A stretch of 22,773 nt of DNA from Rubrivivax sp. (GTDB lineage Bacteria > Pseudomonadota > Gammaproteobacteria > Burkholderiales > Burkholderiaceae), in the NCBI GenBank assembly GCA_016790225.1, contig JAEUOZ010000047.1, forward strand, positions 1-22,773, read 5' to 3'. This document shows, piece after piece, positions 4,601 to 21,711 of this stretch (positions within the stretch are counted from its first letter, which is position 1; the number at the start of each line of letters is the position of its first letter). Both the position numbers and the translations under genes were made by a program. The notes beneath the pieces were generated by a model. It did no database searches. It was given only the letters and a program-made list of their open reading frames with translations, and had not been told where the DNA came from.

Positions 4601-7600
4601 GAAGCCGCCGGAGCCGATGTTGTCCCCCGATTGGCCGACCAGCGCGGTGGATGAGGACACGGCCGGGGCGGCCAGCGTCGAGGCATTCACGCGCAGCACG
4701 GCACCTTCGTTGGAGCCCCAGTTGGGCAGCGCGACCGCAAAGGCGCCACTGCCCAGGGCGTGCAGCGACAGGCTTGAATCGGTAAAGGCGTTGGCCGGGT
4801 TGACTTGCCCGGTGTGAACGGCATTCGGGCCGCCCCAGAGCACGCTGCGAACGTTGCCGTTGGCAGACAGGCCGTTTTGAAGGTTCAGCGCCCAATAGCC
4901 AGCGCCCAGATCCACCACCTGTGTGGGGCGGTTGACGGTATTGGACAGGCCCGAATAGTTCTCTTCCCAGGCTCCCACGACGTTGATCACGCCGCTGATG
5001 CCTGTGCCTGCGGGCCCATAGGCGAAGGCGCCCCTGCCAGTGGTGCTGAAATTGCCTTCGAAGCCGCCCTGGACCAGATACGCGCCGTTGGAGAGCACCG
5101 TCAGCCCGTTGAGTGAGTAGTTCGAAGCACCGACCAGACTGTTGGCCGAGCTCAGGTTGCCCACGGTCGGGCTGGATGTGCTGGAGAAGGTGTAGGCGCC
5201 GAGACCACCGAAGTTCGACTGCACCAGATAAGTCCCGGAGCCGAGGTCGGTCACGCCGCTGCCGACGCGGGCGTTGGAGGCCGTGCCCACCAAGGCATTG
5301 CCGGCGGCAGGCGCCGCCAGCGAGCCGCGCAAGGTGGTGGCGAAATCGGTGTTGAAGGGCACCAGCCGCGCATAACCGCGGGTGCCGTTCCATTCGGGAT
5401 CGGCAACGACCAGATCGCCGCTGCTCAGCTGCGTGAAGACGCGGGCCTCCACGCCACCCAACAGCAAGGCATTGCTGCTGTTGATGCCGCCCAGCACGCC
5501 GGTGCTGGCGATGGCGGGCGTGAGCGGCACCAGGGCGCTGCTGGCGCTGGAGTTGGCCAGGCTCAACACGTAGTTGGTGCTGCCTGCGCCGCCAAACTGG
5601 ATCAGGCCTTGGCCGGCACGCCCGTCGGCGCGCAGCGCCAGGCCATAGCTGTCGTTCGCGTTGGTACCCACCATGCTGTTGGCCGAAGACACGGCGCCCA
5701 CCAGGGTGCCGTTGTCGATGAGCTGCGGGCTGATGATGGTCACCGCGCCGCGCCCGTCGTTCCAGTGTGGGCTGCCGAGCACCCAGTTGCCCGCGCCGAT
5801 GCTGTGCAGGGTGCGGCTGACGTAGGGTTCTGGGTCCGTGGTGGCGGGGTTGTTGATCAGGTCTTCGCTCGCGAAGACGCCGATAGCATCGCCGCGGGTT
5901 ACGGCGTACCAGGTCTGACTGTTGGGGATTTGAGCGTTGGCGGTACCCGCCGTACTGCCCACCATCGAGTTGGCCGGGCCCACAACACCCGCCGGCAAGG
6001 TGGTGCCGATGCCATTGGCCCTGAAGAAATGGAAGGCGCCACGCTGCAAGGTGTAGGAGTTGAAGCCGGTCTGACCCCGGTCCATCGATGCCGCGTAATA
6101 GCCACCGCCCAGGTCATCAATCGAGCCAAAGCCTCGGCCGTAGGTCGTGTCGCCGACCAGGCTGTTGCTGCTGTCCATGCGGCCGCTGGCGGGCGGGTTG
6201 GCGGCGTCGAAATACGCCACGGCGCCGACGCCGGCATTGGCGCCGCTGTTGGCAATCAGCCAGCGGCTGTTGCCCAGCGAGCGCCAGTTGGTGGTGCCGC
6301 CCGTGTCGCGCAGCGCACTGACGAGGCCGCCATTGCGCAGGAAGACATAGCCCGCACCGCTTCCAATGGCGCTCTGATCTGGGCTGAGCACCAGCAGGTT
6401 GCCGTTGCTCACGTCATGAACGGCGCGGCCGAAGCCGCTGGAGGCGGCGTCGGGGTCCACGAAGGCGGTGATCTCGAAGCCGAGGCCGGGCTCGATGATG
6501 TTGAGCACAGCGGGGTCGAGCAGCAGCTCGCCGGCCTGCACCTGCCCGCCGAAGCCCAGTTGCTGGCGTCCGGAGATTTCAACGAAGCCGCCGTTTGGCG
6601 TGTGCTTCACCCCGCCCTCGGCGCGGCGCGCATCCACCGAGCCGGTGAACAGCGTGGTGCCTTCGCTCCACACGATGGCGCGGCCCCCAGGCCCTTGCTG
6701 CGTGGCCGAGACATCGATGCTGACGGCATTGGCGTTCAGCCCTTCGGCATTGGGCATGTCGGGGTTGCGGCCCTGCAAATCGCCCCCCAGGCGCACCGAT
6801 CCACCGGCTGTGGCGCCCTGCGCCTGCACTCGCGTGGCGTACAGATCGAGCTGGCGGCCACTGACATCGATCTGGCCGCCGCGGCCCTGACTGCCGCTGG
6901 CGCTCAAGGTGCCCGAGAGGTAAGCGCCACCGCCTTCGCCCAGCGCGTGCGCCAGCGACACGCGGCCGCCATCGGTCTGGCCATCGGCACGCAGTTCGGA
7001 CTGCACAGGCATCACCGTGCGGTGTGCATTGACCGTGACGTTGCCGCCCGCGCCGGCGTTGCCCGAGGCGCTGGCCAGGCCGAAGGCGTCGTGCTGCCCG
7101 GACTGGATGTGGATGCTGCCGCCCGTGCGGCCATCGGCACGCAGTTGGCCGCTGTTGGCGATGTGGCCCTGTTCGCGCTCGCCCGTGAGCGGGTTGATGC
7201 TGATGCTGATGCTGGTGCCGGTACTGGCCACCAGCCGGATGACGCCGCCTTGATCCACCAGGCTGCTGGCGCTGACCGTGCCGCGGTTGTTGATGGCCGC
7301 ACCCAGCAGCGCATTGGCCGCCCGTGCCGTCATGATCACCTGGCCGCCTTCGGCCTGCACGAGCTGGTTGTTCTCCACCAGGGCGCGCAGGTTGGCCGGG
7401 TCCACCTGGACGCCCACGCTGCCGCCATCAAAACTGAGCGTGACGGCCTCGCCGGCGGCCAGGGCCACGGTGCCCAGCGTGGCTCGAATGGTGCCGTTGT
7501 TGACCACCTCGCTGCCCAGCAGCGCGATGCCGCCGCCCGGAGCTGCTTGCAGGCTGCCCTCGTTGACGACCTTGCCCGTGGCGTTGCCGCGGGTGAAGCG

Positions 7601-8176
7601 GTAGCGCCCGGCCTGGAAGTCGCTGTCAGTGATGTCGAGCGTGGAGGCCACGAGGCCACCGACATCCACCCGCGAGCCCTGGGTGAACATCACCCCGTTG
7701 GGGTTGACCAGGAAGACCTGCCCATTGGCCTGGATGCGGCCGGCGATCTGCGAGGCATCGCCGCCGATCACGCGGTTGAGCGTGACGGCTTGGGCGGAGG
7801 GCTGCTGGAAGCGTACCGAGGCCTGTGAGCCGACGTTGAAGCTTTGCCAGTTGATGAGCGCCTTGTCGGTGGACTGCTGGATGTCCATCGTCGAGCCTTG
7901 CCGCTGCACGCTTGCCTGGCCTTGCACCACGCGCTCTCCGGTGGGCAGGGTGGCCGCGGGCAGGGGCGTGGGCGCGGCTGAGCCTGCAGCGGCCTGCGCC
8001 AGCACGGCGGGACTTGAAAGCGCCATCGCGGCCGCTGTGACGGCAGCCGACACCGCACTCAGCGCACGGCCTGAACGGCCTTCACGGCTGGGTTTGCCGC
8101 GGCTGCAGGTGACTTCGCTCACGGCCACATAGCAGCGGCTGCGGTGGCTCCAGACGAGGCGGTGGATGTGATTCAT
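224..8176 (-). CDS. TpsA: filamentous-haemagglutinin-like two-partner secretion exoprotein, interrupted by an in-frame stop
   Basis: This is a very large secreted beta-helical exoprotein, 2650 codons to the first stop. Residues 1-60 form an extended signal peptide: the conserved start MNHIHRLVWS, a long charged region, a hydrophobic stretch and a likely cleavage at VLA|Q. The ESPR fixes the start even though no clear Shine-Dalgarno precedes it. Residues about 78-190 are the TPS/haemagglutination domain, with the NPNG motif at 158-161, which family knowledge says is recognised by TpsB. Next come glycine-rich beta-helix repeats to about 560, NSLVG repeats to about 1670, YDG-type domains from about 1850, and exact 85-residue repeats from 2160. 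I noticed no cysteine after the signal peptide, as usual for TpsA. It lies 94 bases downstream of tpsB, so the two are probably co-transcribed. Translation stops at codon 67 of an 85-codon repeat, so the C-terminus is not natural-looking. The likely role is adhesion or biofilm; the ligand is unknown. Confidence 0.93.
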   Translation of the reverse strand: MNHIHRLVWSHRSRCYVAVSEVTCSRGKPSREGRSGRALSAVSAAVTAAAMALSSPAVLAQAAAGSAAPTPLPAATLPTGERVVQGQASVQRQGSTMDIQQSTDKALINWQSFNVGSQASVRFQQPSAQAVTLNRVIGGDASQIAGRIQANGQVFLVNPNGVMFTQGSRVDVGGLVASTLDITDSDFQAGRYRFTRGNATGKVVNEGSLQAAPGGGIALLGSEVVNNGTIRATLGTVALAAGEAVTLSFDGGSVGVQVDPANLRALVENNQLVQAEGGQVIMTARAANALLGAAINNRGTVSASSLVDQGGVIRLVASTGTSISISINPLTGEREQGHIANSGQLRADGRTGGSIHIQSGQHDAFGLASASGNAGAGGNVTVNAHRTVMPVQSELRADGQTDGGRVSLAHALGEGGGAYLSGTLSASGSQGRGGQIDVSGRQLDLYATRVQAQGATAGGSVRLGGDLQGRNPDMPNAEGLNANAVSIDVSATQQGPGGRAIVWSEGTTLFTGSVDARRAEGGVKHTPNGGFVEISGRQQLGFGGQVQAGELLLDPAVLNIIEPGLGFEITAFVDPDAASSGFGRAVHDVSNGNLLVLSPDQSAIGSGAGYVFLRNGGLVSALRDTGGTTNWRSLGNSRWLIANSGANAGVGAVAYFDAANPPASGRMDSSNSLVGDTTYGRGFGSIDDLGGGYYAASMDRGQTGFNSYTLQRGAFHFFRANGIGTTLPAGVVGPANSMVGSTAGTANAQIPNSQTWYAVTRGDAIGVFASEDLINNPATTDPEPYVSRTLHSIGAGNWVLGSPHWNDGRGAVTIISPQLIDNGTLVGAVSSANSMVGTNANDSYGLALRADGRAGQGLIQFGGAGSTNYVLSLANSSASSALVPLTPAIASTGVLGGINSSNALLLGGVEARVFTQLSSGDLVVADPEWNGTRGYARLVPFNTDFATTLRGSLAAPAAGNALVGTASNARVGSGVTDLGSGTYLVQSNFGGLGAYTFSSTSSPTVGNLSSANSLVGASNYSLNGLTVLSNGAYLVQGGFEGNFSTTGRGAFAYGPAGTGISGVINVVGAWEENYSGLSNTVNRPTQVVDLGAGYWALNLQNGLSANGNVRSVLWGGPNAVHTGQVNPANAFTDSSLSLHALGSGAFAVALPNWGSNEGAVLRVNASTLAAPAVSSSTALVGQSGDNIGSGGFFSVGSNRAILLSPQWNGNAGAATFVTPGNAATRLIGSLSASNSLVGASAGDKLGNGLFPSWQNLEPLHQPVVRLGTTSTYALLSPMWNGERGAATLFDPATADLLGTLGAANSLVGRHAGDRVGLGAGVTEVINQPGRFDPDDSATRNPFVSLGGSRFALRSPEWRAQAGDTAGAGALTWIDTASALPIGTLDAQNSLVGAQAGDRIGYDGASTLVQPLTGTRQLISHVAFDGGKGAVTVVDSTNPPIGVVGSGNSLVNASNTQGVFRTVPVNASGAQTQTGEAASSLLALGGGHLLMTPTWSGGQGAITWIAPNTTPTGTLSASTSLIGGAGDQLGGRAVLLGNGKLLLGSPLSNGARGAATLLANSGGLAATLLGTLDISADNSFVGVSAGDGVSTGDRVSSGGFADLGNDIFVTYSPHFGSSSNPRTVHGAVTLGDSVTNAMRGDLSGVNSFFSSVQGQAAVPYISAQGQTGAIMSTGSQVGLVQVTQPVSLVNGNLGFGDYGTRSVNMRPMTITQMLNAGTDVTLQATDAINLLTPVVVDNPNGTGGHLTLQTNNVNGPGITIGSAGRIHTDGGNLTIRSASNFINNASASPFSVGSGNWMVYARDAATSVVGNLDFDYKEYGKVFGQTLQGQTVRDQANQGPGKAVVFELAPSLSVPTPNDFKTYDGTTALGTPYTISGLLGGDVLNVTAAYPNRHVELDPSNNAINKDIIVTVAPGGVRSSPATGSKPVYGYLNEPAAGPTTFTGAGFIMPFSLQVDLAQTTVTKVYDGTEAAPLGWIPQWTIPGFQAPAPDTLSIVPDTANGATARFIDINTWSPAAGVGTVTHIEVSGPFVATNIVGGGLPTDYQIQINNLNTAPAVITPRPLVGGLTVATRSYDGTTLATINGSPTAGNPLTSIFNSSGGAQPDDVQVSGSVTSANFADANAGVGKPVQVTGLSLTGADASNYTVSSLTVSGTITPAVLSISGTTAAGRSYNGTTAATLTAGTLSGLVGSETLNVAATGTFDSANAGSRTASATYTLSNGTGLAANYTLAGTTGHTATITPVALSISGTTASGRSYDGTTAATLTAGTLSGMVGSETLNVAATGTFDSANAGNRTASAAYTLSDGTGLAVNYTLAGTTGHAATITPLALSISGTTAAGRSYDGTTAATMTAGTLSGLLGSETLNVSATGSFDSANAGSRTASATYTLSNGTGLASNYTLAGTTGHAATITPLALSISGTTAAGRSYDGTTAATLTAGTLSGLLGSETLSVSATGTFDSANAGNRTASASYTLSNGTGLAANYTLAGTTGHAATITPTLLMISGTTAASRSYDGTTAATLTPGTLAGLVGSETLNVAATGSFDSANAGLRLATVTYTLSDGTGLASNYILPSAFMPQAWITPLALSISGTTAASRSYDGTTAATLTAGTLSGLLGSETLNVAATGTFDSANAGSRTANATYTLSNGTGLA
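3190..6440 (-). repeat. About 15 imperfect NSLVG repeats in the central part of tpsA
   Basis: The central third of TpsA is built from units of about 50-80 residues. Each ends in a motif like ANSLVG or NSMVG, often followed by AGD-(K/R)(L/V/I)G, a span containing LG-G-Y/LL, then SP-WNG-RGAATL and a GTL/GAV strand before the next NSLVG. Clear examples begin NSLVGDTTYG, NSLVGASAGD, NSLVGRHAGD and NSLVGAQAGD; weaker ones read SNALLLGG and NSFFSSVQG. The alternation of GD-loops and beta strands loosely recalls FG-GAP propeller repeats. Similar repeats occur in other large bacterial surface proteins, but I cannot assign a named family. The boundaries are approximate because the unit length varies. 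Confidence 0.75.
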
Positions 8177-8270
8177 GGTCAGAGGCTCGAAAGAGGAGTC
8201 AAGAAGGCGAGTGCCGGGTCGGACACGCCATGTGCGGGGCAGGCTGGAGCTTTTCGGCGCCAGTGGGCGC

Positions 8271-10007
8271 TCAGAGCGAGCCCTGCACCGACAACCAGAC
8301 CCGCGGCTTGCGCAGCGTGCCGTCGCTGTCGCTGCCGTCCGCGTTGGGTGCGGGGTGGCGGCCCAGTCGCTGGGCGAGGGTCAGGCGGGTGATCACGCTT
8401 TGCGACGGGCTCAGGCGCAATCGCCACTCGGCGGCCAGGCCCACGCCGTTCAGGCTGAGTGATTGGCTGGAGCTGGCACCCCAAGGGCGCGCGTCCTGAC
8501 GCACACGACCGTGGTCGACAAAGGCGGCCAGCTGCCAGGCGTCGCTGAAGCGATGTCGAACCTCCACCGTGGCCACCGTGCCGCTGTCCCCGCTGACCTC
8601 TGACAAGGGGTAGGCGCGCACGCCGGAGGGGCCGCCCAGCGAAATGCGCTCGCTTGAATCGAGGTTGTTGTCGCTCTGCTGTCCATAGGCCTGCAGCCAG
8701 AGCGTGGTGTCGGGCGCCAGCCGCTGCAGGCGGGCCAGTTGCCATCCCAGCTTGGCGTAGGCGCCAGCACGGCGCGGTCCGGCGGCGTCGGCCAGGGCAT
8801 CAGCCGGCTCGCCGCTCAGATCCAGGCTGCCGGTGGTCATGGTGAAACTGCCGGTGGTCACGCCACCGCCAGCCCAGTTGTCACTGCGATCACCGGAGAA
8901 GCTGAGGCTGAGCGTGCGGGCTGACTTGTCGGACAGCACCCCAGCGGTGCTGTCGTTGACGAAGCTGCGCTGCTCGGCCATCAGGCTGGCGTTGAGGCTG
9001 CCCTGCGGCAAGCGCAGCAAGGGATGACTGAGCCCGATGCCCAGGGTGCGAGCTGAGCCGCTGGCCCCGCTCGCGGAAAAGCGGCCCACCAACTCGTACT
9101 GCAGCGCGGAGGCCTGCCACTGGGCGCGGGTGCCTTGTGCGCCCAGCGCAAGACTGCCGGAGACCCGGGCGTGGCGTTTGCCTTCGCTCAGCTGCGCCTG
9201 CAGTTGCCAGTCCTCACCCAGCCCCAGCGGGTTGGCCCATTGCAGGGCCGCCGAGGCACGCACTTCGCCGGTGGCGATCGCGTCGTGGTTGTCCAGCGTG
9301 ATCGAGGCGTCGAACACCGGGCGGGCTGACAGGACGACCTTCACATCGGTTTCGCCTGGGGCTGCGCCGGCCGCCAGTGTGACGCTGGCCTCGACACCCG
9401 GCACTTCATTGGCCAGGCGCGCTGCCCGCGCCAGGGTCTGGATCTGGATGACCTGGCCTGGCTGCTGGCCGGCCTGCATCATTTGTTCGATCAGCTCGAC
9501 CGGCAGCCGGGCACCCGCAGGGCTGCTGACCTGGATGCGGCCCAGCCGCCCCTCGGCCACCACGATGCGCACCATGCCGCCTTCCAGGCTTTGCTCGGGC
9601 AGGTAGGCGGTGGCATGCAGGCCGCGCTCACGGTAGTAGGCTGCCACGGCGTCGGCAGCGGCCTGAAGGCCGGCAAAGCCCAGCGGCTTTCCGACGCGAT
9701 CGGCCAAGGCGGCTTCCAGCTCGGCTGCCGGTATGGCCCGCGAGCCTTCCACCCGAAAGCCCGTGACAGTGACCGTGACGCCAGAGTCCTGCAGGATGCG
9801 CGGAACCTGCTGCGGCGGCAGCGTGGGTACAGGGCGGGCTGGTGGCTGGGTCTGCCGCAGGATGGATCCAGCGTCAGTCTGCGCGTGAACGCCGGGTGCA
9901 CCCAGTCCGGCGAGGAGCAGTGTCAGTGCCGATAGCTGACACAAAGGCCGAAGGACTGCGGGCCTCCTCGACGCAGGGGTGAAGAGGGAATGCGCGGTGT
10001 TGAGCAT
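8271..10007 (-). CDS. TpsB: outer-membrane two-partner secretion transporter (FhaC/ShlB family)
   Basis: TpsB proteins form an outer-membrane beta-barrel with two periplasmic POTRA domains that recognise the TPS domain of the partner and thread it to the surface. With the start at 10007 the protein has 578 residues, usual for the family. Residues 1-42 look like a signal peptide (hydrophobic LSALTLLLAGLG, cleavage VHA|Q). A proline-rich linker follows, then POTRA 1 at about 75-150 and POTRA 2 at about 150-225. The rest is barrel, with the L6-loop motif VRAYP (Arg464), matching the conserved VRGY of FhaC. Upstream in-frame ATGs at 10061 and 10043 exist, but they would give an overlong signal n-region; the chosen ATG has GAGAAGCGAG upstream. 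The protein ends in Gly-Ser-Leu rather than the usual terminal aromatic residue. tpsA follows 94 bases downstream. Confidence 0.93.
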   Translation of the reverse strand: MLNTAHSLFTPASRRPAVLRPLCQLSALTLLLAGLGAPGVHAQTDAGSILRQTQPPARPVPTLPPQQVPRILQDSGVTVTVTGFRVEGSRAIPAAELEAALADRVGKPLGFAGLQAAADAVAAYYRERGLHATAYLPEQSLEGGMVRIVVAEGRLGRIQVSSPAGARLPVELIEQMMQAGQQPGQVIQIQTLARAARLANEVPGVEASVTLAAGAAPGETDVKVVLSARPVFDASITLDNHDAIATGEVRASAALQWANPLGLGEDWQLQAQLSEGKRHARVSGSLALGAQGTRAQWQASALQYELVGRFSASGASGSARTLGIGLSHPLLRLPQGSLNASLMAEQRSFVNDSTAGVLSDKSARTLSLSFSGDRSDNWAGGGVTTGSFTMTTGSLDLSGEPADALADAAGPRRAGAYAKLGWQLARLQRLAPDTTLWLQAYGQQSDNNLDSSERISLGGPSGVRAYPLSEVSGDSGTVATVEVRHRFSDAWQLAAFVDHGRVRQDARPWGASSSQSLSLNGVGLAAEWRLRLSPSQSVITRLTLAQRLGRHPAPNADGSDSDGTLRKPRVWLSVQGSL

Positions 10008-10366
10008 CGGCTCGCTTCTCAACGGTGGTTGGCTGACCCTCATTGTTTCGGCCGCCCTCAAGTGGTGTTACGCGAGAAAAACGCAGGCTTGACCGCCCAT
10101 CTGCTGGCGCGGGGGCATCGGCGGCTCGTGTTTGCGCTCGAATCTCCCGGAACCGAGTGAGCGCGACCGACAGGAGCGCGGGCGGCAGAAGTCGGCACCC
10201 GCGTTGGACCGGCCGAGCGCCCATCGGACTGCGCAGGAATTCACTCGAAGGGCTGCCGCGAAGGCTTCAGCCCGCGCCCGCGGGGTGGGCAGCCAGGCCG
10301 CATCCCCGGATGCTCGCGCCCTCGATCAGCCAGAGCCGCCCGGCCTTGATGCCGGCCTCGAACACC
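10008..10366. other. Divergent intergenic region between tpsB and the oxidase-peroxidase gene
   Basis: These 359 bases must hold the promoters of both the tpsBA pair and the plus-strand lipoprotein gene. The plus frame of the lipoprotein gene is open throughout, but it encodes an Arg/Pro/Ala-rich stretch with no domain, so I regard it as non-coding. I found a TTGACC at 10089-10094 with no convincing -10 box at the right spacing, and no clear sigma-54, Fur or other operator. No strong terminator-like hairpin is visible. Confidence 0.5.
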
Positions 10367-13300
10367 ATGTCGTTGAACACCCCCCTTGGCCGCACGGCCT
10401 GCATGGCCCTGACCCTCCTGGCGCTGACGGCCTGCGGCGGCGGGGGCGGTGATCCGGCGCAGCCGAGCGCCGCGTCGACCGAGGAACGCCAGCGGACGCT
10501 GAGCGTGCCTGGCGGCACCGCCATCCCGGCTGACGCGCATCTCAAGGGCCTGTTCGGCGCCCTCAAGAGCTGGCCGCTGATCGCCGTGCACGGCATCGTG
10601 ATGGCCGACGGGCGCGTGATGAGCTACGGCACGCGTGAGTCCGGCCAGCAGACGGCCTTCTTCACCTACGACATCTGGAACCCGGCGGACGACAGCCACC
10701 TGACGCTCAGCAACAACACGCAGACCGACATCTTCTGCAGCTCGCAGGTCGGCCTGCCCGGCTCCAACTCGGTGTTCATTGCCGGGGGCGACAACTGGAC
10801 CGGCACGCGCACCACGAACACCGGCAACAACAACAGCAACGTGCTGAACGGCAACAGCAACACGCTGGCGCGCGGCAGCAACATGAACCGCGCGCGCTGG
10901 TATTCCAGCTCCACCGTGCTGCCCAGCGGCGAGGTCTATATCCAGGGCGGCTCCGGCGGCACGGACCTGCCCGAGATCCGCGCGGCCAATGGCAGCTTCA
11001 GGTTGCTGACCGGTGCCAGCACCGGCAGCCTGGCCTTCGACTTCCCGCGCAACTTCGTGGCGCCAGATGGTCGCGTCTTCGGGTTCGACTCCAGCGGCCG
11101 CATGTACTTCGTCAATACCACCGGCAATGGTGCGATCCAGCTGCTGTCCAACTTCAACGCCGCCTTTGCCGGCGGCTCGTCCAGTGCGGCGATGTTTGCG
11201 CCCGGGCGCATCCTGCAGTTCGGCGGCAACTCCAACCAGGCTGCGGTGATCGACATCACCGGCAGCGCGCCGGTGGTCAACCAGACCAACTCCCTGCTGC
11301 GCCAGCGCCAGTGGGGCGTGGCCACCCTGCTGGCCGATGGGCAGGTGCTGGCCACGGGCGGCAGCACGGTCAACAACCAGATGACGGGCGTCAGCTACGA
11401 AGCCGAGATCTGGAACCCGGCCACCGGTCGCTGGACAGTCGGCGCGTCGGCGCAGAAGGCGCGGCTGTATCACGGCAACGCGTTGCTGCTGCCGGACGCG
11501 ACCGTGCTGGTCTTCGGCGGTGGCGCACCCGGCCCGCAGGTCAACACCAACGCCGAGATCTACTACCCACCCTACCTCTTCAAGTCAGGCGGCGTGGCAG
11601 CGCAGCGCCCGACCATCACCCAGGCGCCCACGGTCGTCGATGCCGGACGCACGGTGAAGATCAGCGTCAGCGGCACCCGGCCCATCAGCCGCATCGGCTT
11701 CGTGAAGAACGGCTCCAGCACGCACAGCTTCAACATGGAGCAGCGCTACGTGAGCCTGCCCTTCGCCGCCGAGGGCAACAGCCTGTCGGTGCAGATTCCA
11801 TCGCGGGCCGCGGACATTCCGCCCGGCATGTGGATGATGTTTGCCATCGATGACACGGGCACCCCTTCGGTCGCCAAGCTCGTGCGCGTCAACGTGGCAT
11901 CGGCGCCCAACACGGCCGTCACGCCGGTGCTCAGCTCACCGGGCAACCAGGTCAGCGTCTCGGGCTCACCCGTGAACCTGAGCGTCAGCGCGTCCGATCC
12001 CAACGGCGACGCGCTGCGCTTTTCGGCCACCGGCCTGCCGGCCGGCCTGTCGCTGGACAGCAGCTCGGGCCGCATCACCGGCACGCCCCGCGCTGCAGGA
12101 TCGCAGACGGTGGTGCTGGTCGCCAGCGACGGCTACAACAGCACCAGCGTCACCTTCAGCTGGACCGTGAGCAACCCGGTACCCCTGGTGCTGACGCCGC
12201 CATCTGCCGCTGCGCCCAGCGCCGCGGGCGCCAACGCCGCGTTCAACGCCTCAGCCACCGGCCAGGGCGTGCAGTACCGCTGGGAGTTCGGCGACGGCAG
12301 CGGCCCGAGCGCGTGGTCCGCCACAGGGGCCATCAACCACCGCTTTGCCGCGCCCGGCGTCTACTACGTCACCGTGACCGCGCGTGACAGCCGCGGCGTG
12401 GAGCAGCGCCACAGCTTCATGCACAACGTGCACCTGCCGCTGGCCGCGAGCGCGCCGACGGCGTCCAGCTCGATGCTGCTGGAGCCCCGCAGCGGCGCCA
12501 ATGCGCGGCTGTGGGTGGTGAACCCGGACAACGACAGCGTGAGCGTCTTCGACAGCGTCACGCGCGCTCGGCTGGCGGAGATCGCCGTCGGCACGGCGCC
12601 CCGCACGCTGGCGCGTGCCACGGCCACCCAGATCTGGGTCGTCAACCAGCGCAGCCACAGCATCAGCGTGATCGATACCGGCACGCTCGCGGTCACACGC
12701 ACGCTGCCGTTGCCGCGAGGTTCGCAACCCTATGGCGTGGTGGCTTCGCCGGCCAACGGCTTTGCGCTGGTCACGCTGTCGGCCAGCGGCCAGTTGCTGA
12801 AGATCGGCACCACGGCCTTCGAGATCCAGGCCCAGCGCGATCTGGGCACGCATGTACAGCACTTGTCGCTGGACAGCAGCGCCGGCACGGCCTATGTCTC
12901 GCGCTTCATCACGCCGCCATTGCCGGGTGAAGCCACCGTGACGCCACAGACTCCCGCGGGCAGCGGCGCCGAGGTGCTGGCCATCAGCACGGTCAACCTC
13001 GCCTTGCAAAAGCGCATCGTGCTGGGCCACAGCGACAAGCCGGATGCGGAAAACCAGGGCCGCGGCATCCCCAACTACCTGGGCGCCGCAGTGATTTCGC
13101 CCGACGCCTCCCAGGCCTGGGTGCCGTCCAAGCTGGACAACATCAAGCGCGGTGTCGGCCGCGACGGCCTGAACCTCAATTTCCAGAACACCGTGCGTGC
13201 GGTCAGCTCCCGCATCAGCCTGGCGGATCAGCAGGAAGACGCGGCCGCCCGCATGGACCACGACAACGCGAGCCTGGCCAGTGCGGCAGCCTATGATCCC

Positions 13301-15514
13301 TTGGGCGTCTACCTCTTCACGGCACTGGAGACCAGCCGCGAAGTCGCGGTGATGGACGCCCACCGCCGCTTGCCGCTGTTCCGCATCGGCGTGGGCCGCG
13401 CGCCGCAGGCGCTTGTCGTCTCCGCGGACCGCCGCACGCTGTACGTCTCCAACTTCATGGATCGCAGCGTCGATGTCTTCGACCTCTCGCCCCTGATCGA
13501 CCAGGGTCTGGCCAGCGCCACGCGGCGTGCGACGCTCGCCAGCATCGGCACGGAAAAGCTGGCCGCCAACGTCCTCAAGGGCAAGCAGCTGTTCTACGAC
13601 GCCAAGGACACGCGCCTGGCGCGCGACAGCTACATGAGCTGCGCCAGCTGCCACGCGGACGGTGGCCACGACGGCCGCACCTGGGACCTGACCGGCATGG
13701 GCGAGGGCCTGCGCAACACCGTGAGCCTGCGCGGCCGCGGCCAGGGCCATGGCCGTCTGCACTGGAGCGGCAATTTCGACGAGGTGCAGGATTTCGAAGG
13801 ACAGATCCGCGGCCTGGCCGGCGGTTCGGGCCTGATGAGCGACGCCCAGTTTCTGGCCGGTACACGCCGCGAAACCCTGGGCGATGCCAAGGCCGGCGTA
13901 AATGCCGATCTCGATGCACTGGCCGCCTACGTGCGCTCGCTGGACCAGTTCGAGCCCAGCCCGGCGCGCCAGGCCGATGGCAGCCTCTCGGCCGCGGGTC
14001 AGCGCGGACGCACGCTGTTTGCCGCGCAGTGCGCGAGCTGCCACGCCGGCAGTGCCTTCACCGACAGCGACAAGCGCGTGATGCACGACATCGGCACGCT
14101 GAAGGCCAGTTCCGGCCAGCGCCTGGGCCGTCAGCTGATCGCCGGCATCGACACGCCCACACTGCGCGATGTGAGCACGACCGCGCCCTACCTGCACGAC
14201 GGTTCGGCCGCGACGATCGAAGGCGCGATCCAGGCTCACACCCGACCCACGCTCACTGCGGCCGAGCTGGCCGACGTCAGTGCCTACGTGCGCCAGATCG
14301 GCGCCGACGAAGCCGCCGCACCCGGCAACCAGGCGAATCTGGTGGTGCGGGCGATGGCGGCCGTGGCGGACTTCGTGGGCGCCTTCTTCGAAGTGCGCGC
14401 CAACGGCGCCGTGGTCGGGCGAGGCCAGCTGGATGCCACCAGCTGGGTGGACCTGGCCTTCAACACCACGAGCTTTGCGGCGGGCGCCGGCATCGACATC
14501 CTGTTCACCAACGACGCCGTCGTGGGTGGCGAGGACCGCAACCTGGGGCTGGCCTCGATCACGCTGAACGGCAGCACCACCGTCAGCGCGAGCGCACCCG
14601 GCGTGATCCTCGATCAAGGCCGGGGCGCCAGCGCGCTGGACGGGCTGGACACGTTCGAAGCGGCCAGCACCGGGGGCTGGCTGCCTTGGGATGCCGCCAT
14701 CCGTTTCACCGCGCCGCCCACCGTGGGCGGCGGCACCGACCGCATCACGGTGCGCGCAGCGGGCAGCCCGGCCGCTGGCGTCTGGCCGACCCTGGAACTG
14801 CGCATCAATGGCACGCTGGCCGGCACGCGCAGCGTCAGCACCGCCACGCTCAGCGACCTGGTCTTTGCCGTCATGCCGCTGCGTGCAGGTGACCGCATCG
14901 ACGTGGTCTTCACCAACGACGGCCAGGTCGGCACCGAAGACCGCAACCTGCGCGTGGCCAGCGTCATGGCGGCCGGCCAGACCTTGACACCCGATGCAGC
15001 GGGCGTGCTGATCGATGCCGGCGATGGTGCGGCCGCTTTCGACGGCCGGGACACGGTGGCCGCCAACAGTTTCGGGGGCTGGATCCCCTGGAACGGCGCG
15101 ATGCGCTTCCCGCCGCTGAGCACCGGCGCTGAACGGCTGGTGGTGCGTGCGCGCGCCACGCTGGCAGGCGGCACGGGCGCGATCATGCAGGTCTACCTGC
15201 GGGGCGCACTGCTGGGCACCGTCACCGTCAACAACACGGCGCTGCAGGACTTCAGCTTCGATGCGCCGGCCGTGGCTGCCGGCGACCGCATCGACGTGGT
15301 CTTCACCAACGACGCCACGATCAATGGCGAGGACCGCAACCTCGTCGTCGCCGCGGTCACGGCACGCGGGCAGATCCTGCTGCCCACGGACGCCAGCGCG
15401 CAACTCGATGCCGGCAGCGGCGCGGCGGCCTTTGACGGCCAGGACGTGATGCCCGCCGCGGGCATGGGAGGCTGGATTCCCTGGGACGGCGCGCTGCGCC
15501 TGATCGCGCGGTGA
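10367..15514 (+). CDS. Lipoprotein fusing a galactose-oxidase-like copper oxidase, YVTN propeller, di-haem MauG/CCP-like module and three CBM60-like domains
   Basis: The product has about 1715 residues. Residues 1-23 form a lipoprotein signal ending in LTAC (Cys23) followed by five glycines; the absence of Asp at +2 suggests outer-membrane sorting. Residues about 45-510 match galactose/glyoxal oxidase. Cys124 and Tyr179 correspond to the Cys228-Tyr272 crosslink, and Tyr368, His369 and His453 to copper ligands Tyr495, His496 and His581. Next are a putative Ig-like domain (about 515-605), a PKD-like domain (about 606-685, motif WEFGDGS) and YVTN propeller blades (about 700-1060). Two CASCH haem c sites follow (1092-1096, 1222-1226) with the MauG/CCP motif APYLHDGSA. 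Three modules carry FTND with EDRNL (FTND at 1380, 1515 and 1646). The oxidase would make H2O2 and the haem module could use it. Starts at 10349 or further upstream are possible, as no strong ribosome-binding site decides. The substrate is unknown, probably a carbohydrate or aldehyde. Confidence 0.85.
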   Translation: MSLNTPLGRTACMALTLLALTACGGGGGDPAQPSAASTEERQRTLSVPGGTAIPADAHLKGLFGALKSWPLIAVHGIVMADGRVMSYGTRESGQQTAFFTYDIWNPADDSHLTLSNNTQTDIFCSSQVGLPGSNSVFIAGGDNWTGTRTTNTGNNNSNVLNGNSNTLARGSNMNRARWYSSSTVLPSGEVYIQGGSGGTDLPEIRAANGSFRLLTGASTGSLAFDFPRNFVAPDGRVFGFDSSGRMYFVNTTGNGAIQLLSNFNAAFAGGSSSAAMFAPGRILQFGGNSNQAAVIDITGSAPVVNQTNSLLRQRQWGVATLLADGQVLATGGSTVNNQMTGVSYEAEIWNPATGRWTVGASAQKARLYHGNALLLPDATVLVFGGGAPGPQVNTNAEIYYPPYLFKSGGVAAQRPTITQAPTVVDAGRTVKISVSGTRPISRIGFVKNGSSTHSFNMEQRYVSLPFAAEGNSLSVQIPSRAADIPPGMWMMFAIDDTGTPSVAKLVRVNVASAPNTAVTPVLSSPGNQVSVSGSPVNLSVSASDPNGDALRFSATGLPAGLSLDSSSGRITGTPRAAGSQTVVLVASDGYNSTSVTFSWTVSNPVPLVLTPPSAAAPSAAGANAAFNASATGQGVQYRWEFGDGSGPSAWSATGAINHRFAAPGVYYVTVTARDSRGVEQRHSFMHNVHLPLAASAPTASSSMLLEPRSGANARLWVVNPDNDSVSVFDSVTRARLAEIAVGTAPRTLARATATQIWVVNQRSHSISVIDTGTLAVTRTLPLPRGSQPYGVVASPANGFALVTLSASGQLLKIGTTAFEIQAQRDLGTHVQHLSLDSSAGTAYVSRFITPPLPGEATVTPQTPAGSGAEVLAISTVNLALQKRIVLGHSDKPDAENQGRGIPNYLGAAVISPDASQAWVPSKLDNIKRGVGRDGLNLNFQNTVRAVSSRISLADQQEDAAARMDHDNASLASAAAYDPLGVYLFTALETSREVAVMDAHRRLPLFRIGVGRAPQALVVSADRRTLYVSNFMDRSVDVFDLSPLIDQGLASATRRATLASIGTEKLAANVLKGKQLFYDAKDTRLARDSYMSCASCHADGGHDGRTWDLTGMGEGLRNTVSLRGRGQGHGRLHWSGNFDEVQDFEGQIRGLAGGSGLMSDAQFLAGTRRETLGDAKAGVNADLDALAAYVRSLDQFEPSPARQADGSLSAAGQRGRTLFAAQCASCHAGSAFTDSDKRVMHDIGTLKASSGQRLGRQLIAGIDTPTLRDVSTTAPYLHDGSAATIEGAIQAHTRPTLTAAELADVSAYVRQIGADEAAAPGNQANLVVRAMAAVADFVGAFFEVRANGAVVGRGQLDATSWVDLAFNTTSFAAGAGIDILFTNDAVVGGEDRNLGLASITLNGSTTVSASAPGVILDQGRGASALDGLDTFEAASTGGWLPWDAAIRFTAPPTVGGGTDRITVRAAGSPAAGVWPTLELRINGTLAGTRSVSTATLSDLVFAVMPLRAGDRIDVVFTNDGQVGTEDRNLRVASVMAAGQTLTPDAAGVLIDAGDGAAAFDGRDTVAANSFGGWIPWNGAMRFPPLSTGAERLVVRARATLAGGTGAIMQVYLRGALLGTVTVNNTALQDFSFDAPAVAAGDRIDVVFTNDATINGEDRNLVVAAVTARGQILLPTDASAQLDAGSGAAAFDGQDVMPAAGMGGWIPWDGALRLIAR
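14340..15511 (+). repeat. Three C-terminal CBM60-like carbohydrate-binding repeats
   Basis: Three units of about 130 residues end the copper-oxidase fusion. Each contains a strand with a VRA motif, a hydrophobic strand ending in (I/V)(L/V)FTND, a Gly-Glu-Asp-Arg-Asn-Leu or Thr-Glu-Asp-Arg-Asn-Leu loop, and a segment like DAG-GAAAFDG-D followed by GGW(I/L)PW. The FTND motifs are 135 and 131 residues apart. The FTND plus DRNL pattern is characteristic of Ca-dependent xylan/galactan-binding modules (CBM36/60 type), where the acidic loop binds calcium. The third unit stops right after its GGWIPWDGALR segment, so the last repeat looks complete at the ORF end. Confidence 0.7.
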
Positions 15515-15613: not shown

Positions 15614-17071
15614 TCAGGCGTGCCGCGGAATCACCAGCCGCACCAGGCTGCCCCGCGGCGGCGCGGGCACAACGCTGAGCGAGCCATGTGCCTGCAGCGC
15701 CCAGTTGTGGCAAGCCATCAGCGATTGCGGCAGGGTGGGCAGGGTTCCCGCAGGCGCCGTGGGCGGCATCGGGCCGGAGTCGCGCAGGCTGAGCACCAGC
15801 TCCTGCGTTTGCGCGGCAAGGGTCAGCTCGATGCGCCGTTCGCCGGGCGGCACGCGCGCCACCGCTTGCAGCGCATGGCGCAACAGCTGGTGGACCACCT
15901 GCTCCAGCGCCATCGGATCCGCCATCACCCAGCCGATGTCTTCGTCGGTCGCCAGCGTGGTGACGACACCCAGGCGCTCGCACTCCGGCTCCAGCAGTTC
16001 CAGCGCGTCGCGCAGCAGTTCATCGGGCCGCACGCCCTGCGACCCCTGGCCCAGGCTCCCGGGCTCGGTGTGCGCGCTCAGACGCGAGATCACCTCGGAG
16101 GCCCGGCGCGCCTGCTGCGCGGCCTGACGGATCGCGCCCCGGGCCACCGCGAGCTCGGGGGGCTCCTTGTCGATCTCTCGGAGCGTGACCACCATCGGGT
16201 TGTGACGCGCCAGCGCGGTGCCAGACCGCTCCGCGCTGCCTGGGGCCGGGCTCAACGTGGACAGCCAGACGGCTTCCAGGCTGTCGCTGTGCAGGAACTC
16301 GGTATCGGCCTCGTGGCGCAAGCGGGCCTGACGCTGGAACCAGGCCGCCAGACCGATCGCCAGCAAGCTGGTGGCCAGGCACCAGGCGGCGAGTTCGGCC
16401 CAGGGCAAGGACAACCAGCCCACACGCCGCACGGCCACCAGTTCCGCCGGCAAGGATTCGACCGACAGCCGCTGGCGGAAGCCGTAGCGCCAACCGCCAG
16501 GATCATCGGCGCCGGCAGCGCCCGGCGCCAGGACGCGCCGCTGCCCGGCGTACTCCAGCCAGGCACGGACCTGACCGTGCGTGGCCATGGGGCTGCTTTC
16601 GCCCTGGCTGGCCAGCTGGCGCAGATCCAGCTGCAGCGCGAAGCTGGCGGGATCACCAGCGCGCACCAGCCACTGACGACCGGCGGCCAGTTCCAGCAGG
16701 GCCAGCACCGGACGCTGGCTGGATCGCGACTGTGCCTCCGCCACCGCCAGGCGCTCGGCCATGGCACCGGGCCAGGGATTCTGTGCGTCGTGCCGCAGGA
16801 CCTTCTGCACCGCCGGATGAACCGACGGCAGGCGCGTCTCGGGCATCAGCCGCTCGCCGGGCTCCGGCCTTGGCTGCAGCAAGGCCAGGGTCTCGACCAG
16901 GGCTTCGTGGTGGCGCGCCTGCTGCGAGAGCCAGCGATGCAGGGAATTCGCCTCGTTCTCGAAGACAAATCGCTCGCGCTCCAGGCTCATGTGCACGCCC
17001 GCGATGCAGCCCGCCAGCGTCAGGGCCAGCCAGGCCAGCAGGAGCAGCAGGTTTCTCGCGCGAACCGACAT
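15614..17071 (-). CDS. Membrane sensor histidine-kinase-like protein with degenerate catalytic motifs
   Basis: The product has about 485 residues: a transmembrane segment near residues 7-27, a periplasmic region, a second transmembrane segment near 222-247, a dimerisation-like helix pair and an HATPase_c-like C-terminus. It resembles FixL/TodS-type kinases (QQARRASEVISRL, then MALEQVVHQLL). However, the H-box HEINQPL of relatives reads REIDKEP, with Arg298 at the phospho-acceptor position. The N-box Asn is His399, the G1 box reads DSGPMPP, and the glycine-rich lid is absent (TLPTLPQSLMACHNWALQAHG). I infer that it cannot autophosphorylate and probably does not bind ATP normally; it may act as a pseudokinase or be decaying. 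The frame is intact. A GTG start at 17086 is an alternative; neither has a good ribosome-binding site. It begins 15-30 bases after the hydrolase stop, so it is probably the last gene of the transporter operon. Confidence 0.8.
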   Translation of the reverse strand: MSVRARNLLLLLAWLALTLAGCIAGVHMSLERERFVFENEANSLHRWLSQQARHHEALVETLALLQPRPEPGERLMPETRLPSVHPAVQKVLRHDAQNPWPGAMAERLAVAEAQSRSSQRPVLALLELAAGRQWLVRAGDPASFALQLDLRQLASQGESSPMATHGQVRAWLEYAGQRRVLAPGAAGADDPGGWRYGFRQRLSVESLPAELVAVRRVGWLSLPWAELAAWCLATSLLAIGLAAWFQRQARLRHEADTEFLHSDSLEAVWLSTLSPAPGSAERSGTALARHNPMVVTLREIDKEPPELAVARGAIRQAAQQARRASEVISRLSAHTEPGSLGQGSQGVRPDELLRDALELLEPECERLGVVTTLATDEDIGWVMADPMALEQVVHQLLRHALQAVARVPPGERRIELTLAAQTQELVLSLRDSGPMPPTAPAGTLPTLPQSLMACHNWALQAHGSLSVVPAPPRGSLVRLVIPRHA

Positions 17072-17101
17072 GCGCAGATTCTGCACCCGTAGCCGCGCAG
17101 A

Positions 17102-17971
17102 TCAGTTCCCCAAGAAGAAGCGCTCGACAATCGCGTGCTGTTCCGGGGTGTTCAAGGCAGGCGCATGACCGCAGCCCGGGATCTCCACGACGACCGCGCG
17201 CGGGCCTCTCTGACGCATGGCATCAGCGGTCTCGCGCAGCAGCAGATCGGAGTCCGCGCCCCGCAGACACAGCACCGGCAGCTCCAGGCTGTCCCAGGCG
17301 GGCCAGATCTCGTAGTCGTCCGGGTGATGGATGAACTGCAGCACCATGGCCGGGTCGTAGTGTGGCGTCACGCGCCCATCCGGCAAGCGCCTGACCGAGC
17401 TTTCAGTCAGGCGCAGCCACTGCTCATCGCTGAGCCAGCCGTAGGGCTTGTAGACGCTGCGGAAGTAGGCCTCGAGCTCCGACACGCGCCGGAAAGCGGC
17501 CGGGCTGCCGGCATAGCTGCGGATGCGCTCGATCGCCGCCGGCGCCAGGCTGGGCCCGTTGTCGTTGAGCACCAGACGCGTGACGCGGCCGCGCAGCGGC
17601 CCGGCGGCCGCCAGCGTGCCGATCGCGCCGCCCATGGAAGTGCCCAGCCACAGGCAGTGCTCGACATTCAGGGCGTCCAGCAGGGCCACCGCCAGCCGCA
17701 CATAGAATGAAAGGTTATACTCCGCGCGCGGATCGGGGCTCCACTCGCTCAGACCGCGGCCCAGGGTATCCGGGCAGATCACGCGCCAGCGGCGCGAGAG
17801 GTGCCGCGCGATGTCATCCATGTCGCGGCCCGTGCGGGCCAGGCCATGCCAGGCGATCACCGTCTGCGGGTGCTCGCTGCCCCACTCCGTGACGTGGATC
17901 TCGCGGTCCAGCACGCGCAGGTAGCGCGATTGCGGCGCGGCCATCGTCGTCGTCGAAGGCTCCAGCTGCAT
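17102..17971 (-). CDS. Alpha/beta-fold hydrolase
   Basis: This 289-residue cytoplasmic alpha/beta hydrolase has no signal peptide. The oxyanion-hole motif WHGLARTGRD lies near residues 42-51, the nucleophile elbow GTSMGG contains Ser112, the acid is Asp242 (in GADSDLL; Asp240 is the alternative), and His269 lies in GCGHAP, so the triad is complete. The usual family reaction is hydrolysis of an ester, lactone or C-C bond; the substrate is not evident. The start is supported by GGAG seven bases upstream and lies only two bases after the livM stop (TGA-GC-ATG), which suggests translational coupling. This placement in a Liv-type operon suggests that the imported solute, or a product of it, is hydrolysed in the cytoplasm. 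Another in-frame ATG at residue 10 is possible. Confidence 0.9.
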   Translation of the reverse strand: MQLEPSTTTMAAPQSRYLRVLDREIHVTEWGSEHPQTVIAWHGLARTGRDMDDIARHLSRRWRVICPDTLGRGLSEWSPDPRAEYNLSFYVRLAVALLDALNVEHCLWLGTSMGGAIGTLAAAGPLRGRVTRLVLNDNGPSLAPAAIERIRSYAGSPAAFRRVSELEAYFRSVYKPYGWLSDEQWLRLTESSVRRLPDGRVTPHYDPAMVLQFIHHPDDYEIWPAWDSLELPVLCLRGADSDLLLRETADAMRQRGPRAVVVEIPGCGHAPALNTPEQHAIVERFFLGN

Positions 17972-17973
17972 GC

Positions 17974-19047
17974 TCAGGCTCCGGGCTTGGCCAGCCGCAG
18001 CGTGCGCGCACGCAGACGCCCGACGATGCCGGTCGGAAAGTGGTAGACGGACAGCACGAACAGCACGCCGAGCCACAGCAGCCAGCGGTCCGGCGTCAGC
18101 ACGGCGCTGAGCAGCGGCACGCCTTCCACCGCGCTGCCGGCCAGCTTCAGCAGATCCTGCAGGTAGTTCTGCGCCAGCACGAAGAGCACGCTGCCGATCA
18201 CCGCGCCATACAGCGTTCCCATGCCGCCGATCACCACGATCAGCAGCACGTCGAGCATGATCTCGAAGCTCAGGGTCGTGTCCGGCCCGGTGTAGCGCAG
18301 CCACAGCGCCAGCAGCGCACCGGCCACGGTGGCCAGCAGTGCGGCCAGCACGTTGGACAGGGTGCGGTAGACCACCACGCGCAGGCCGATGGCCTCGGCG
18401 CGGAAATCGTTTTCGCGGATGGCCTGCAGCACGCGGCCGAAGGGCGAGTTGACAACCCGCAGCGTGCCCAGGAACAGCAGCGTCACCACGCCGAAGAGCA
18501 GCCAGTAGCTGAGGTGGCGCCCATCCAGCGCAAAGCCCAGCCACTCGAAATCGAAAGATGGTGAGAGCAGTTCGGGGTTCTTGAAGGTCAGCCCGTCTTC
18601 GCCGCCGGTGAAGTCGGACAACTGCGAGGCCAGGGTCTGGAACGCCGCAGCCACGGCCAGCGTGATCATCGCGAAGAAGATGGCCTTCACGCGCAGGCTG
18701 AAGAGCCCGATCACCAGGCTCAGCAGCAGCGATGCGCCCAGCGCCAGCAGCAGCCCCAGCGCGACCGCATCGAAGCCCGGCCCCAGGCGCGTGCTGGCGA
18801 TCGCCACGCCGTAGGCGCCGATGCCGAAGAACATCGTGTGCGCAAAGCTGACGATGCCGGTGTAGCCCAGCAGCAGGTCGTAGCTGGTGACCAGCAGGAT
18901 GAAGATCAGGACCTTGGCCGCCACGCTGAGGGCCTTGCTGCCGGGCAGCCACAGCGGGGCGAAGGCCAGGCCCACGACGATCAGCAGCAGGGCCGCCGCG
19001 AGCCAGACATTGCGCGGGCGATCATGGGAGAGCAGGCGGTCGATCAT
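17974..19047 (-). CDS. livM: Branched-chain amino acid type ABC transporter permease LivM
   Basis: This 357-residue inner-membrane permease has LivM-family features: a hydrophobic N-terminal helix, the conserved stretch LLLGYTGIVSFAHTMFFGIGAY near residues 58-80, further helices rich in Leu and Ala, the cytoplasmic coupling segment VNSPFGRVLQAIRENDFRAEA near 207-227 and GGMGTLYGAVIG near 285-296. It pairs with LivH to form the translocation channel energised by LivG and LivF. The start has AAGGG a few bases upstream, overlapping the end of livH; the gap between the genes is 10 bases. The downstream hydrolase begins two bases after its stop. The length is normal and no disruption is seen. Confidence 0.95.
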   Translation of the reverse strand: MIDRLLSHDRPRNVWLAAALLLIVVGLAFAPLWLPGSKALSVAAKVLIFILLVTSYDLLLGYTGIVSFAHTMFFGIGAYGVAIASTRLGPGFDAVALGLLLALGASLLLSLVIGLFSLRVKAIFFAMITLAVAAAFQTLASQLSDFTGGEDGLTFKNPELLSPSFDFEWLGFALDGRHLSYWLLFGVVTLLFLGTLRVVNSPFGRVLQAIRENDFRAEAIGLRVVVYRTLSNVLAALLATVAGALLALWLRYTGPDTTLSFEIMLDVLLIVVIGGMGTLYGAVIGSVLFVLAQNYLQDLLKLAGSAVEGVPLLSAVLTPDRWLLWLGVLFVLSVYHFPTGIVGRLRARTLRLAKPGA

Positions 19048-19057
19048 GACGGGCCCT

Positions 19058-20110: not shown

Positions 20111-20844
20111 GCGTGGGCTCCCAGCGACAGACCGAGCAGTCGCTGCTGAAGTTGATCGTCTGCGCTCAGTTCGGCCATGGAGCCGGCGTGCACGACACGG
20201 CCGTTGTCCATGACCGCCACGCGGTCACCCAGGGCGCGGGCCATGGCCACGTTCTGCTCGACGAGCAGGATCGTCGTCTTCTGGCGCTTGAGCTCCTGGA
20301 AGGCGCGGATCAGGTTCTGGATGATCGACGGGGCCAGGCCCTTGCTGGGTTCGTCGATCAGCAGCAGGTCGCGCGGCTCGACGATGGCGCGCGCCACCGC
20401 CAGCATCTGCTTCTGTCCGCCGGAGAGCTTGCCCGCCGGATAGAGCCAGAACTTGCGCAGCGCCGGGAAGAGATCGAATATCCACGCCAGCCGGGCTTCA
20501 TCCAGCTGCGCCGCGTGGCGGGCGCCACGCGCGGCGAGCAGCATGTTTTCCTGCACCGTCAGATCGGTGAAGATGCCCATGTTCTCGGGCACATAGGCGA
20601 TGCCTCGCATGGCGATCTCGGGCACGGCAAGGCCCGTCAAGGGCTGGCCGCGGAACGTGACGCTGCCCTGGGATGCCGACCACAGGCCCATGATCGTGCG
20701 CAGCGTGGTCGTCTTGCCGGCGCCATTGCGCCCCAGCAGCATGGTCACCTCGCCCTCGGGCACCTCCAGATCCACGCCATGCAGGATGTGGTATGCGCCG
20801 ATGTGCGTGTGCACGCCGCGCAGGCTGAGCAGCGTCTGGCTCAT
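20107..20844 (-). CDS. livF: Branched-chain amino acid type ABC transporter ATP-binding protein LivF
   Basis: This 245-residue cytoplasmic ATPase subunit of the importer has Walker A GRNGAGKTT at residues 38-46, Q-loop region YVPENMGIF near 85-93, ABC signature LSGGQKQ starting at residue 140, Walker B LLLIDEPSKGL near 158-168, and ILLVEQN near the switch region. Gln in place of the H-loop His is normal for LivF. The start is supported by a strong ribosome-binding site. It overlaps the start of livH and follows livG after 58 bases. The length and motifs are intact, so the subunit is expected to be functional. Confidence 0.97.
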   Translation of the reverse strand: MSQTLLSLRGVHTHIGAYHILHGVDLEVPEGEVTMLLGRNGAGKTTTLRTIMGLWSASQGSVTFRGQPLTGLAVPEIAMRGIAYVPENMGIFTDLTVQENMLLAARGARHAAQLDEARLAWIFDLFPALRKFWLYPAGKLSGGQKQMLAVARAIVEPRDLLLIDEPSKGLAPSIIQNLIRAFQELKRQKTTILLVEQNVAMARALGDRVAVMDNGRVVHAGSMAELSADDQLQQRLLGLSLGAHA

Positions 20845-20850
20845 CGCACG

Positions 20851-20858
20851 CTCCTCCC
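20851..20858 (-). promoter_or_regulatory. Strong Shine-Dalgarno of livF
   Basis: The minus strand reads GGGAGGAG six bases before the livF ATG. It is the best ribosome-binding site in the operon and contrasts with livG, which has none visible. Confidence 0.8.
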
Positions 20859-20902
20859 TGCTGCAGGCCGCGGGCTTGGCGCCATGGAAGGACGATGTGC
20901 GC

Positions 20903-21709: not shown

Positions 21710-21711
21710 GG

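Follow-up and report, generated by a model that had tools for sequence, protein, structure and literature searches.

Can a copper-radical oxidase work as a single redox unit with a di-haem module on its own polypeptide? This question is raised by a gene at positions 10367..15514 (+) of the window, the whole 22,773-nucleotide stretch of Rubrivivax sp. contig JAEUOZ010000047.1 analysed here. An earlier note on this DNA had described the product as one lipoprotein joining a galactose-oxidase-like domain, a YVTN propeller, a part resembling MauG and cytochrome c peroxidase (CCP) with two CASCH sites, and three carbohydrate-binding modules (CBMs); a domain search of the 1715-residue protein recovers the oxidase, CCP_MauG and CBM60 regions, and the same core architecture is found in full-length relatives from many lineages. 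On its anatomy alone, the protein is almost certainly an exported copper-radical oxidase (CRO) chain that continues into a propeller and di-haem module resembling hydrazine synthase beta and gamma. The presence of the CRO and the di-haem module on one chain is a real pairing that recurs in many bacteria.

The frame contains no internal stop over its 1715 amino acids (aa), and homologs span its full length. Of 7990 proteins scored in a search with the window protein, 1732 are relatives at E <= 1e-3, and the best 120 of these were listed. Among 178 candidates (119 proteins and 59 locus frames), 172 proved alignable across the core, so that the core alignment of 173 rows consists of the window protein, 115 of the 119 database relatives and 57 of the 59 locus frames; P0006, P0010, P0043, P0045, L042 and L018 were excluded for length or coverage. 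None of the 173 aligned rows departs from the four copper ligands or the two CxxCH motifs, while the cysteine of the Tyr-Cys cofactor is kept in 171. In the six excluded rows, a pattern search found at least two CxxCH, RWY and RxYH in 6/6, and the pattern of the H453 region in 3/6. The nearest relative besides the window's own record, P0003, has 73% identity with 100% of the query covered, and such full-length relatives speak against an artefactual join; a frameshift or misassembly of two separate genes, which the earlier note had named as the finding that would undo its proposal, is rejected on this ground. The divergence of the CRO and that of the haem module are correlated (r 0.68 over 135 dereplicated of the 173 rows, a value reached by none of 200 label shuffles), a value to which shared ancestry contributes. 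A longer alternative frame of the gene opens with TTG at 10043, and P0002, the database copy of the window protein, has a later start and 1703 aa. The large antisense frames are presumed to be mirror frames of high-G+C DNA.

In the established chemistry of CROs, an alcohol or aldehyde gives up two electrons, which are passed to O2, yielding H2O2. The CRO domain of the window protein is a kelch propeller with a galactose-oxidase-like E-set (residues 57-508, 10535..11890, +). The best PDB sequence matches of the whole protein are to galactose oxidase 9g8h/9g43 (residues 117-508, E 3.8e-41), and the main AA5-like features are present, with a seven-bladed kelch propeller and E-set fold, Tyr, Tyr, His and His as copper ligands, and the cysteine of the Tyr-Cys pair. 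The cross-linking cysteine is C124 (10736..10738, +), while the copper ligands are Y179, also the radical site (10901..10903, +), Y368-H369 (11468..11473, +) and H453 (11723..11725, +), which we take to correspond to galactose oxidase Y272, Y495-H496 and H581. The galactose-oxidase-like domain of the earlier note is thus borne out, although the narrower family models are matched below their thresholds (Pfam Glyoxal_oxid_N at 2.3e-8, under its cut-off; NCBIfam GlxA at 1.1e-39, its 136 bits lying under the equivalog cut-off of 800), and Pfam places GO-like_E_set at 414-508 (2e-21) and also matches Kelch_4. A second-shell Trp at the place of galactose oxidase W290 and GlxA W288 occurs in 17 of the 173 rows and is absent from the other 156, including the window protein, whose type of head carries an RWY motif instead. 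This Trp is not common to all CROs, since an AA5_1 enzyme provides it from elsewhere (PMC13094651). Judged by these motifs, the di-haem module is paired with two types of CRO active site, one GlxA/galactose-oxidase-like and one marked by RWY.

Downstream of the CRO lies a seven-bladed YVTN propeller resembling hydrazine synthase beta (residues about 700-1050, 12464..13516, +), for which NCBIfam YVTN repeats confirm the earlier assignment, followed by the di-haem module (residues 1066-1316, 13562..14314, +). The latter is matched by CCP_MauG (1.1e-10) and by Cytochrom_C (1212-1310), and its best PDB relative by profile is hydrazine synthase gamma (5c2v_C, E 2.3e-21); the NCBIfam model for a hydrazine synthase beta-gamma fusion is matched at 8e-19, its 67 bits falling short of the curated cut-off of 1250. 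Both haem sites read CASCH, as first noticed, with haem 1 at 1092-1096 (13640..13654, +) and haem 2 at 1222-1226 (14030..14044, +), both cysteines and the histidine of each being present in 173/173 rows. These four are the only module cysteines conserved at 95% or more in the alignment. Near haem 1, at the place of the CCP/MauG distal Gln/Pro/Glu in an alignment with 1iqc, stands the family signature HWSGNFDEVQDFEGQIR (13760..13810, +), whose residues H1132, E1139, D1142, F1143, E1144, Q1146 and R1148 are kept in 173/173 rows. The second axial ligand of haem 2 is predicted by alignment to be H1291 (14237..14239, +; 172/173), located at HDG+14, where the CCPs 1iqc, 3o5c and 1eb7 have Met and MauG, MbnH and BthA have Tyr. 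W1133 (172/173) lies at what we take to be the place of MauG W93 and CCP W94. Hence, while the MauG/CCP-like label of the earlier note stands at the level of the family match, it is not supported as a functional label, given His1291 in place of Met or Tyr and the distal residues that are missing by alignment. By fold, an archaeal surface-layer protein is the nearest solved structure to the propeller, and hydrazine synthase beta comes next; neither a di-haem peroxidase nor 5c2v_C was among the fold matches listed, which other folds fill, the haem part of both models being of lower confidence. One predicted structure, that of L061, spans both the CRO and haem parts (pTM 0.61). A metal site in the YVTN propeller, hinted at by a weak L-NosZ match, was considered and rejected, as no His or Cys and, of the Met residues, only M1031 is conserved there at 95%.

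The two modules are also found apart. Eleven relatives contain the propeller and di-haem module without a CRO, and in them HWSGNFDExxDF is present in 11/11, with the following E in 10/11 and in full with ExQIR in 6/11, while His1291 is found in 5/11, all five from Lautropia records. On these motifs, the di-haem module is broader than its copper partnership, and neither the full signature nor His1291 is exclusive to fusions. The stand-alone Lautropia proteins that keep HWSGNFDE..DF and His1291 are L064, L066, L069, L070 and L056; a second group, L065, L073, L076, L077 and L078, carries Big_5 and PKD ahead of the propeller/di-haem part, with LVIVD repeats in 4/5, and lacks a His at the H1291 place; here the module bears another head, and its haem-2 ligand differs. 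Further variants include a tandem pair of di-haem modules with four CxxCH in P0006, two di-haem matches in one 2568-aa frame of genome G118 (contig C1, 320397-323996), and, in L072:9119-15047, a CRO and a propeller/di-haem part in two overlapping frames, which are either separate genes or a frameshift. On the copper side, CROs that stand alone are common with either type of head (239 of 240 rows among the matches listed are without CxxCH, in a search that admits proteins 0.55 to 1.75 times the query length and so favours short ones), and some of them, such as P0189, P0206 and P0313, lie on long contigs.

The titles of the records that hold fusions name Pseudomonadota, Myxococcota, Verrucomicrobiota, Chloroflexota and Deinococcota, and many of these records are metagenome-assembled; cultured bacteria with a relative include Paracidovorax wautersii, Undibacterium curvum and Variovorax sp. 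dw_308. In a GTDB-based contig set, a relative is encoded in 184 of 195 pattern stretches, the best 80 of which were retained, and 21 of 200 genomes from one family contain a di-haem match at E <= 1e-60, a count of the di-haem match alone and not of the CRO fusion. A single clean fusion event is not borne out, because the CRO tree intermingles fused CROs with stand-alone ones, with 4 changes for G-type fusions (at least 3 forced) and 6 for W-type (at least 4 forced). This tree is a quick, unrooted search with long branches, built from 64 of the 173 fused rows and 78 of the 231 solo rows that could be used (240 were listed), some of which may be contig-end fragments. The interleaving therefore points to a CRO/di-haem joining that was made or broken several times, gains and losses being indistinguishable in an unrooted tree.

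Gene neighbourhoods were compared among the relatives. Of 57 loci with a full core, 45 of which have more than 1.5 kb on both sides, 24 carry a same-strand SCO1/SenC gene no more than 0.6 kb from the fusion frame, with PF02630 found in 5/5 cluster members scanned, and a gene for a mono-haem cytochrome c belongs to the cluster in 16, all within the 24 SCO loci. In a locus tree of 64 rows (the 57 loci and seven database proteins without flanking DNA), these neighbours fall into two separate clades, one with SCO only (8/10 rows) and one with cytochrome c and SCO (16/17 rows). The exceptions are L010, where the contig edge follows right after the gene, L023, with 156 bases there, and L074, which has both flanks and no SCO. 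The 17-row clade is exactly the clade with GlxA/galactose-oxidase-like heads. Among the CRO-less propeller/di-haem relatives, an SCO match was found in 0 of the 9 loci with at least 3 kb per side (2 of the 11 have shorter flanks), for a Fisher p of 0.02 uncorrected for kinship.

Since both cofactor sites are kept on one chain across lineages and SCO and cytochrome c genes lie beside relatives, a functional redox unit can fairly be inferred. The reading that we tentatively prefer is that of a CRO with an on-board di-haem unit, which handles its peroxide and redox state by means of cytochrome c electrons. Here, copper would be loaded into the Tyr-Cys site, by the adjacent SCO protein in the relatives that have one, and the copper site would oxidise a primary alcohol or aldehyde, passing two electrons to O2 and giving H2O2. 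Electrons from the cytochrome c pool would enter at haem 2, the predicted bis-His haem, and cross to haem 1, where H2O2 would be reduced near its place of formation; oxidised haem 1 would also keep the copper/tyrosyl centre active. Between the copper and haem centres, the propeller would act as a scaffold, while the variable C-terminal domains, CBM60 in the window, would set the location of the enzyme. Parts of this scheme have analogues elsewhere, as the exposed bis-His haem of hydrazine synthase gamma has been proposed as the cytochrome c entry toward the catalytic haem (PMC12607021), and in Streptomyces both Sco and a haem peroxidase are needed for GlxA maturation and, on the authors' proposal, for the removal of peroxide (PMC4736821). 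Several observations weigh against this reading. No SCO gene is found in 33 of the 57 loci, and the window gene and nine loci of its clade have no adjacent SCO or cytochrome c (the clade has 16 rows, with flanking DNA for these nine loci and the window, and L001, L002 and L005 have less than 300 bases on one side). The electron-entry haem of a CCP differs from a low-potential bis-His haem. Haem 2 may be of the low-potential kind, by comparison with the bis-His haem gamma-II of hydrazine synthase, for which about -330 mV is given (PMC12607021). The distal Gln, Pro and Glu conserved across bacterial CCP, MauG and BthA (PMC6405878), to which a part in binding peroxide is ascribed, are missing in the sequence alignment, where a gap, Q1146 and G1152 stand against 1iqc, and therefore peroxidase activity is not implied by family membership. 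Likewise, since stand-alone CROs are common, the haem module is not needed for CRO function, and because the core of the haem-1 signature is present in 11/11 CRO-less relatives, the haem chemistry need not involve a copper enzyme.

Other explanations compete with this reading, and each of the three roles suggested in the earlier note, activation of the copper centre, detoxification of its H2O2 and coupling to the respiratory chain, is still a candidate. Haem peroxidases are known to oxidise and activate galactose oxidase, and it is conceivable, though rather unlikely, that the chief task of the di-haem module is to oxidise the copper/tyrosine centre or to aid Tyr-Cys formation, with a small role in bulk peroxide removal. 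MauG, whose axial ligand is Tyr where the fusion has His, reportedly loses its bis-Fe(IV) state when this Tyr is replaced by His, and many stand-alone CROs manage without a haem partner on the chain; such a role would nevertheless fit the conservation of W1133 and the strict conservation of W716, Y904, W1106 and Y1188 in the propeller and haem module, as well as the requirement for DtpA in GlxA maturation at low copper in Streptomyces (PMC4736821). A bolder reading, which we consider unlikely, is a haem-gated CRO, in which a His/His haem 2 and a new haem-1 pocket (HWSGNFDExQDFExQIR) would exchange electrons directly with the copper/tyrosyl centre. If this were so, the cytochrome c pool would set the radical enzyme on or off, and substrate electrons would be exchangeable with the respiratory chain. 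Were the enzyme instead to work in the manner of haem-fused dehydrogenases, with the haems relaying substrate electrons from copper to cytochrome c and on into the respiratory chain in place of O2, the clustered cytochrome c gene (16/57 loci) and the electron-transfer type of the predicted bis-His haem 2 would find a use, and cytochrome domains as built-in mediators of oxidoreductases are a known theme (PMC6472588). Given the high potential of the tyrosyl radical in CROs, however, re-oxidation of the copper centre by haem would be uphill if the bis-His c-haems have potentials as low as that of gamma-II (about -330 mV), and is energetically doubtful. CROs also react readily with O2, and this mode appears quite unlikely.

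The remaining two explanations deny any coupling between the centres. That the di-haem module runs an unrelated reductive chemistry of its own, in the manner of hydrazine synthase gamma (for example on nitrogen oxides or another substrate), with the copper domain just tethered, is suggested by the place of hydrazine synthase gamma and beta among its closest PDB relatives and by the presence of the module without a CRO in Lautropia-type and LVIVD-headed proteins. We hold this to be improbable, as the copper and haem modules have stayed joined across many lineages and diverge in a correlated way, no conserved module cysteine corresponds to the third one on haem gamma-I of hydrazine synthase, and no alpha-subunit family is among the Pfam/NCBIfam matches of the window chain. 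That ordinary domain shuffling produced an adhesin-like surface protein whose domains are not catalytically coupled, or that the annotation is at fault, is very improbable indeed: C-terminal domains exchange freely, the window gene adjoins a two-partner secretion locus and fused and stand-alone CROs interleave in their tree, but the invariance of the cofactor residues in 173/173 rows and the SCO linkage in two clades speak against it.

No description of such a CRO/di-haem fusion was found in searches aimed at it in one open-access library, as judged by titles and abstract openings, with subscription papers and preprints outside this scope. The switching-on of CROs and the cellular handling of the H2O2 they make are an open practical and biological question, and in vitro a haem peroxidase is usually added to these enzymes. 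Here, a di-haem module occurs naturally on the CRO chain, in some loci accompanied by genes for a copper chaperone and a cytochrome c. The family offers a direct route to testing haem control of a tyrosyl-radical copper enzyme, and it enlarges the hydrazine-synthase-like branch of di-haem proteins by a large group.

The remaining parts of the window protein concern export and placement. A signal peptide with the lipobox LTAC and a lipid-anchored Cys23 is predicted by eye (10367..10435, +), and a loose lipobox pattern is found within the first 60 aa in 86 of 119 relatives; the fusion protein is thus probably exported and lipid-anchored, in agreement with the lipoprotein of the earlier note. Spacer domains lie between the CRO and the YVTN propeller (residues 520-685, 11924..12421, +; Pfam He_PIG 520-602 and PKD 616-685). 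At the C-terminus, three CBM60 domains (about 1324-1676, 14336..15394, +), the first two delimited by an internal repeat, form a variable add-on, matching PF16841 in 3 stretches (E 3.9e-40, 136.7 bits, above the gathering score; best 1591-1676). The three modules first proposed are therefore present, and their suggested anchoring on a glycan could apply to the window variant, yet not to the conserved unit: CBM60 was rejected as part of the core, being found by our own count in only 26 of the 120 best listed rows, one of which is the window's own record, while the others mostly carry PA14, by eye, and C-terminal domains shuffle freely among these relatives. Next to the gene, a divergently oriented two-partner secretion pair (224-10061, -) encodes a TpsA of 2650 aa with ESPR, TPS, DUF5650 and YDG (7 stretches) and a TpsB, a ShlB/FhaC-type transporter of 596 aa. 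On the other side are a 490-aa protein (15614-17086, -) whose sole family match is a weak one to HATPase_c (E 6.5e-4, under the cut-off), possibly a divergent sensor kinase, and then (17102-22761, -) an alpha/beta hydrolase followed by a putative Liv-type set for branched-chain amino-acid ABC transport, assigned by eye.

Set beside known systems, the fusion combines features that are elsewhere kept apart. The bacterial galactose oxidase of Pseudoarthrobacter siccitolerans (9g43/9g8h) and the AA5 CROs share its kelch propeller and E-set, copper ligands and Tyr-Cys pair, but their chains are without a di-haem module, and where galactose oxidase has W290 and GlxA W288, the window type has RWY and no Trp. 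In the Streptomyces GlxA/Sco/DtpA system, a CRO likewise works alongside a chaperone for copper and a haem peroxidase (PMC4736821), and SCO lies beside the fusion in 24/57 loci; in contrast, these are separate proteins, and DtpA is a DyP-type peroxidase with no c-type di-haem module. The di-haem CCPs (1iqc, 3o5c, 1eb7) share two CxxCH, a Trp between the haem sites and a PYxHDG-type motif, and differ in their axial Met, which is His in the fusion, and in the distal Gln/Pro/Glu, which the fusion lacks by alignment. MauG, MbnH and BthA belong to the same superfamily, PF03150, with MauG and 6e1c, presumably MbnH, matched by profile, and they differ in having an axial Tyr where the fusion has His and the distal triad that is missing from it. 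The beta and gamma subunits of hydrazine synthase (5c2v) have a propeller and a di-haem part with a bis-His second haem, as predicted for the fusion, and the enzyme differs in its alpha subunit and in the third cysteine on haem gamma-I (PMC12607021). By alignment, hydrazine synthase gamma has Thr at the H1291 place, and the second His ligand of this subunit must therefore come from another position.
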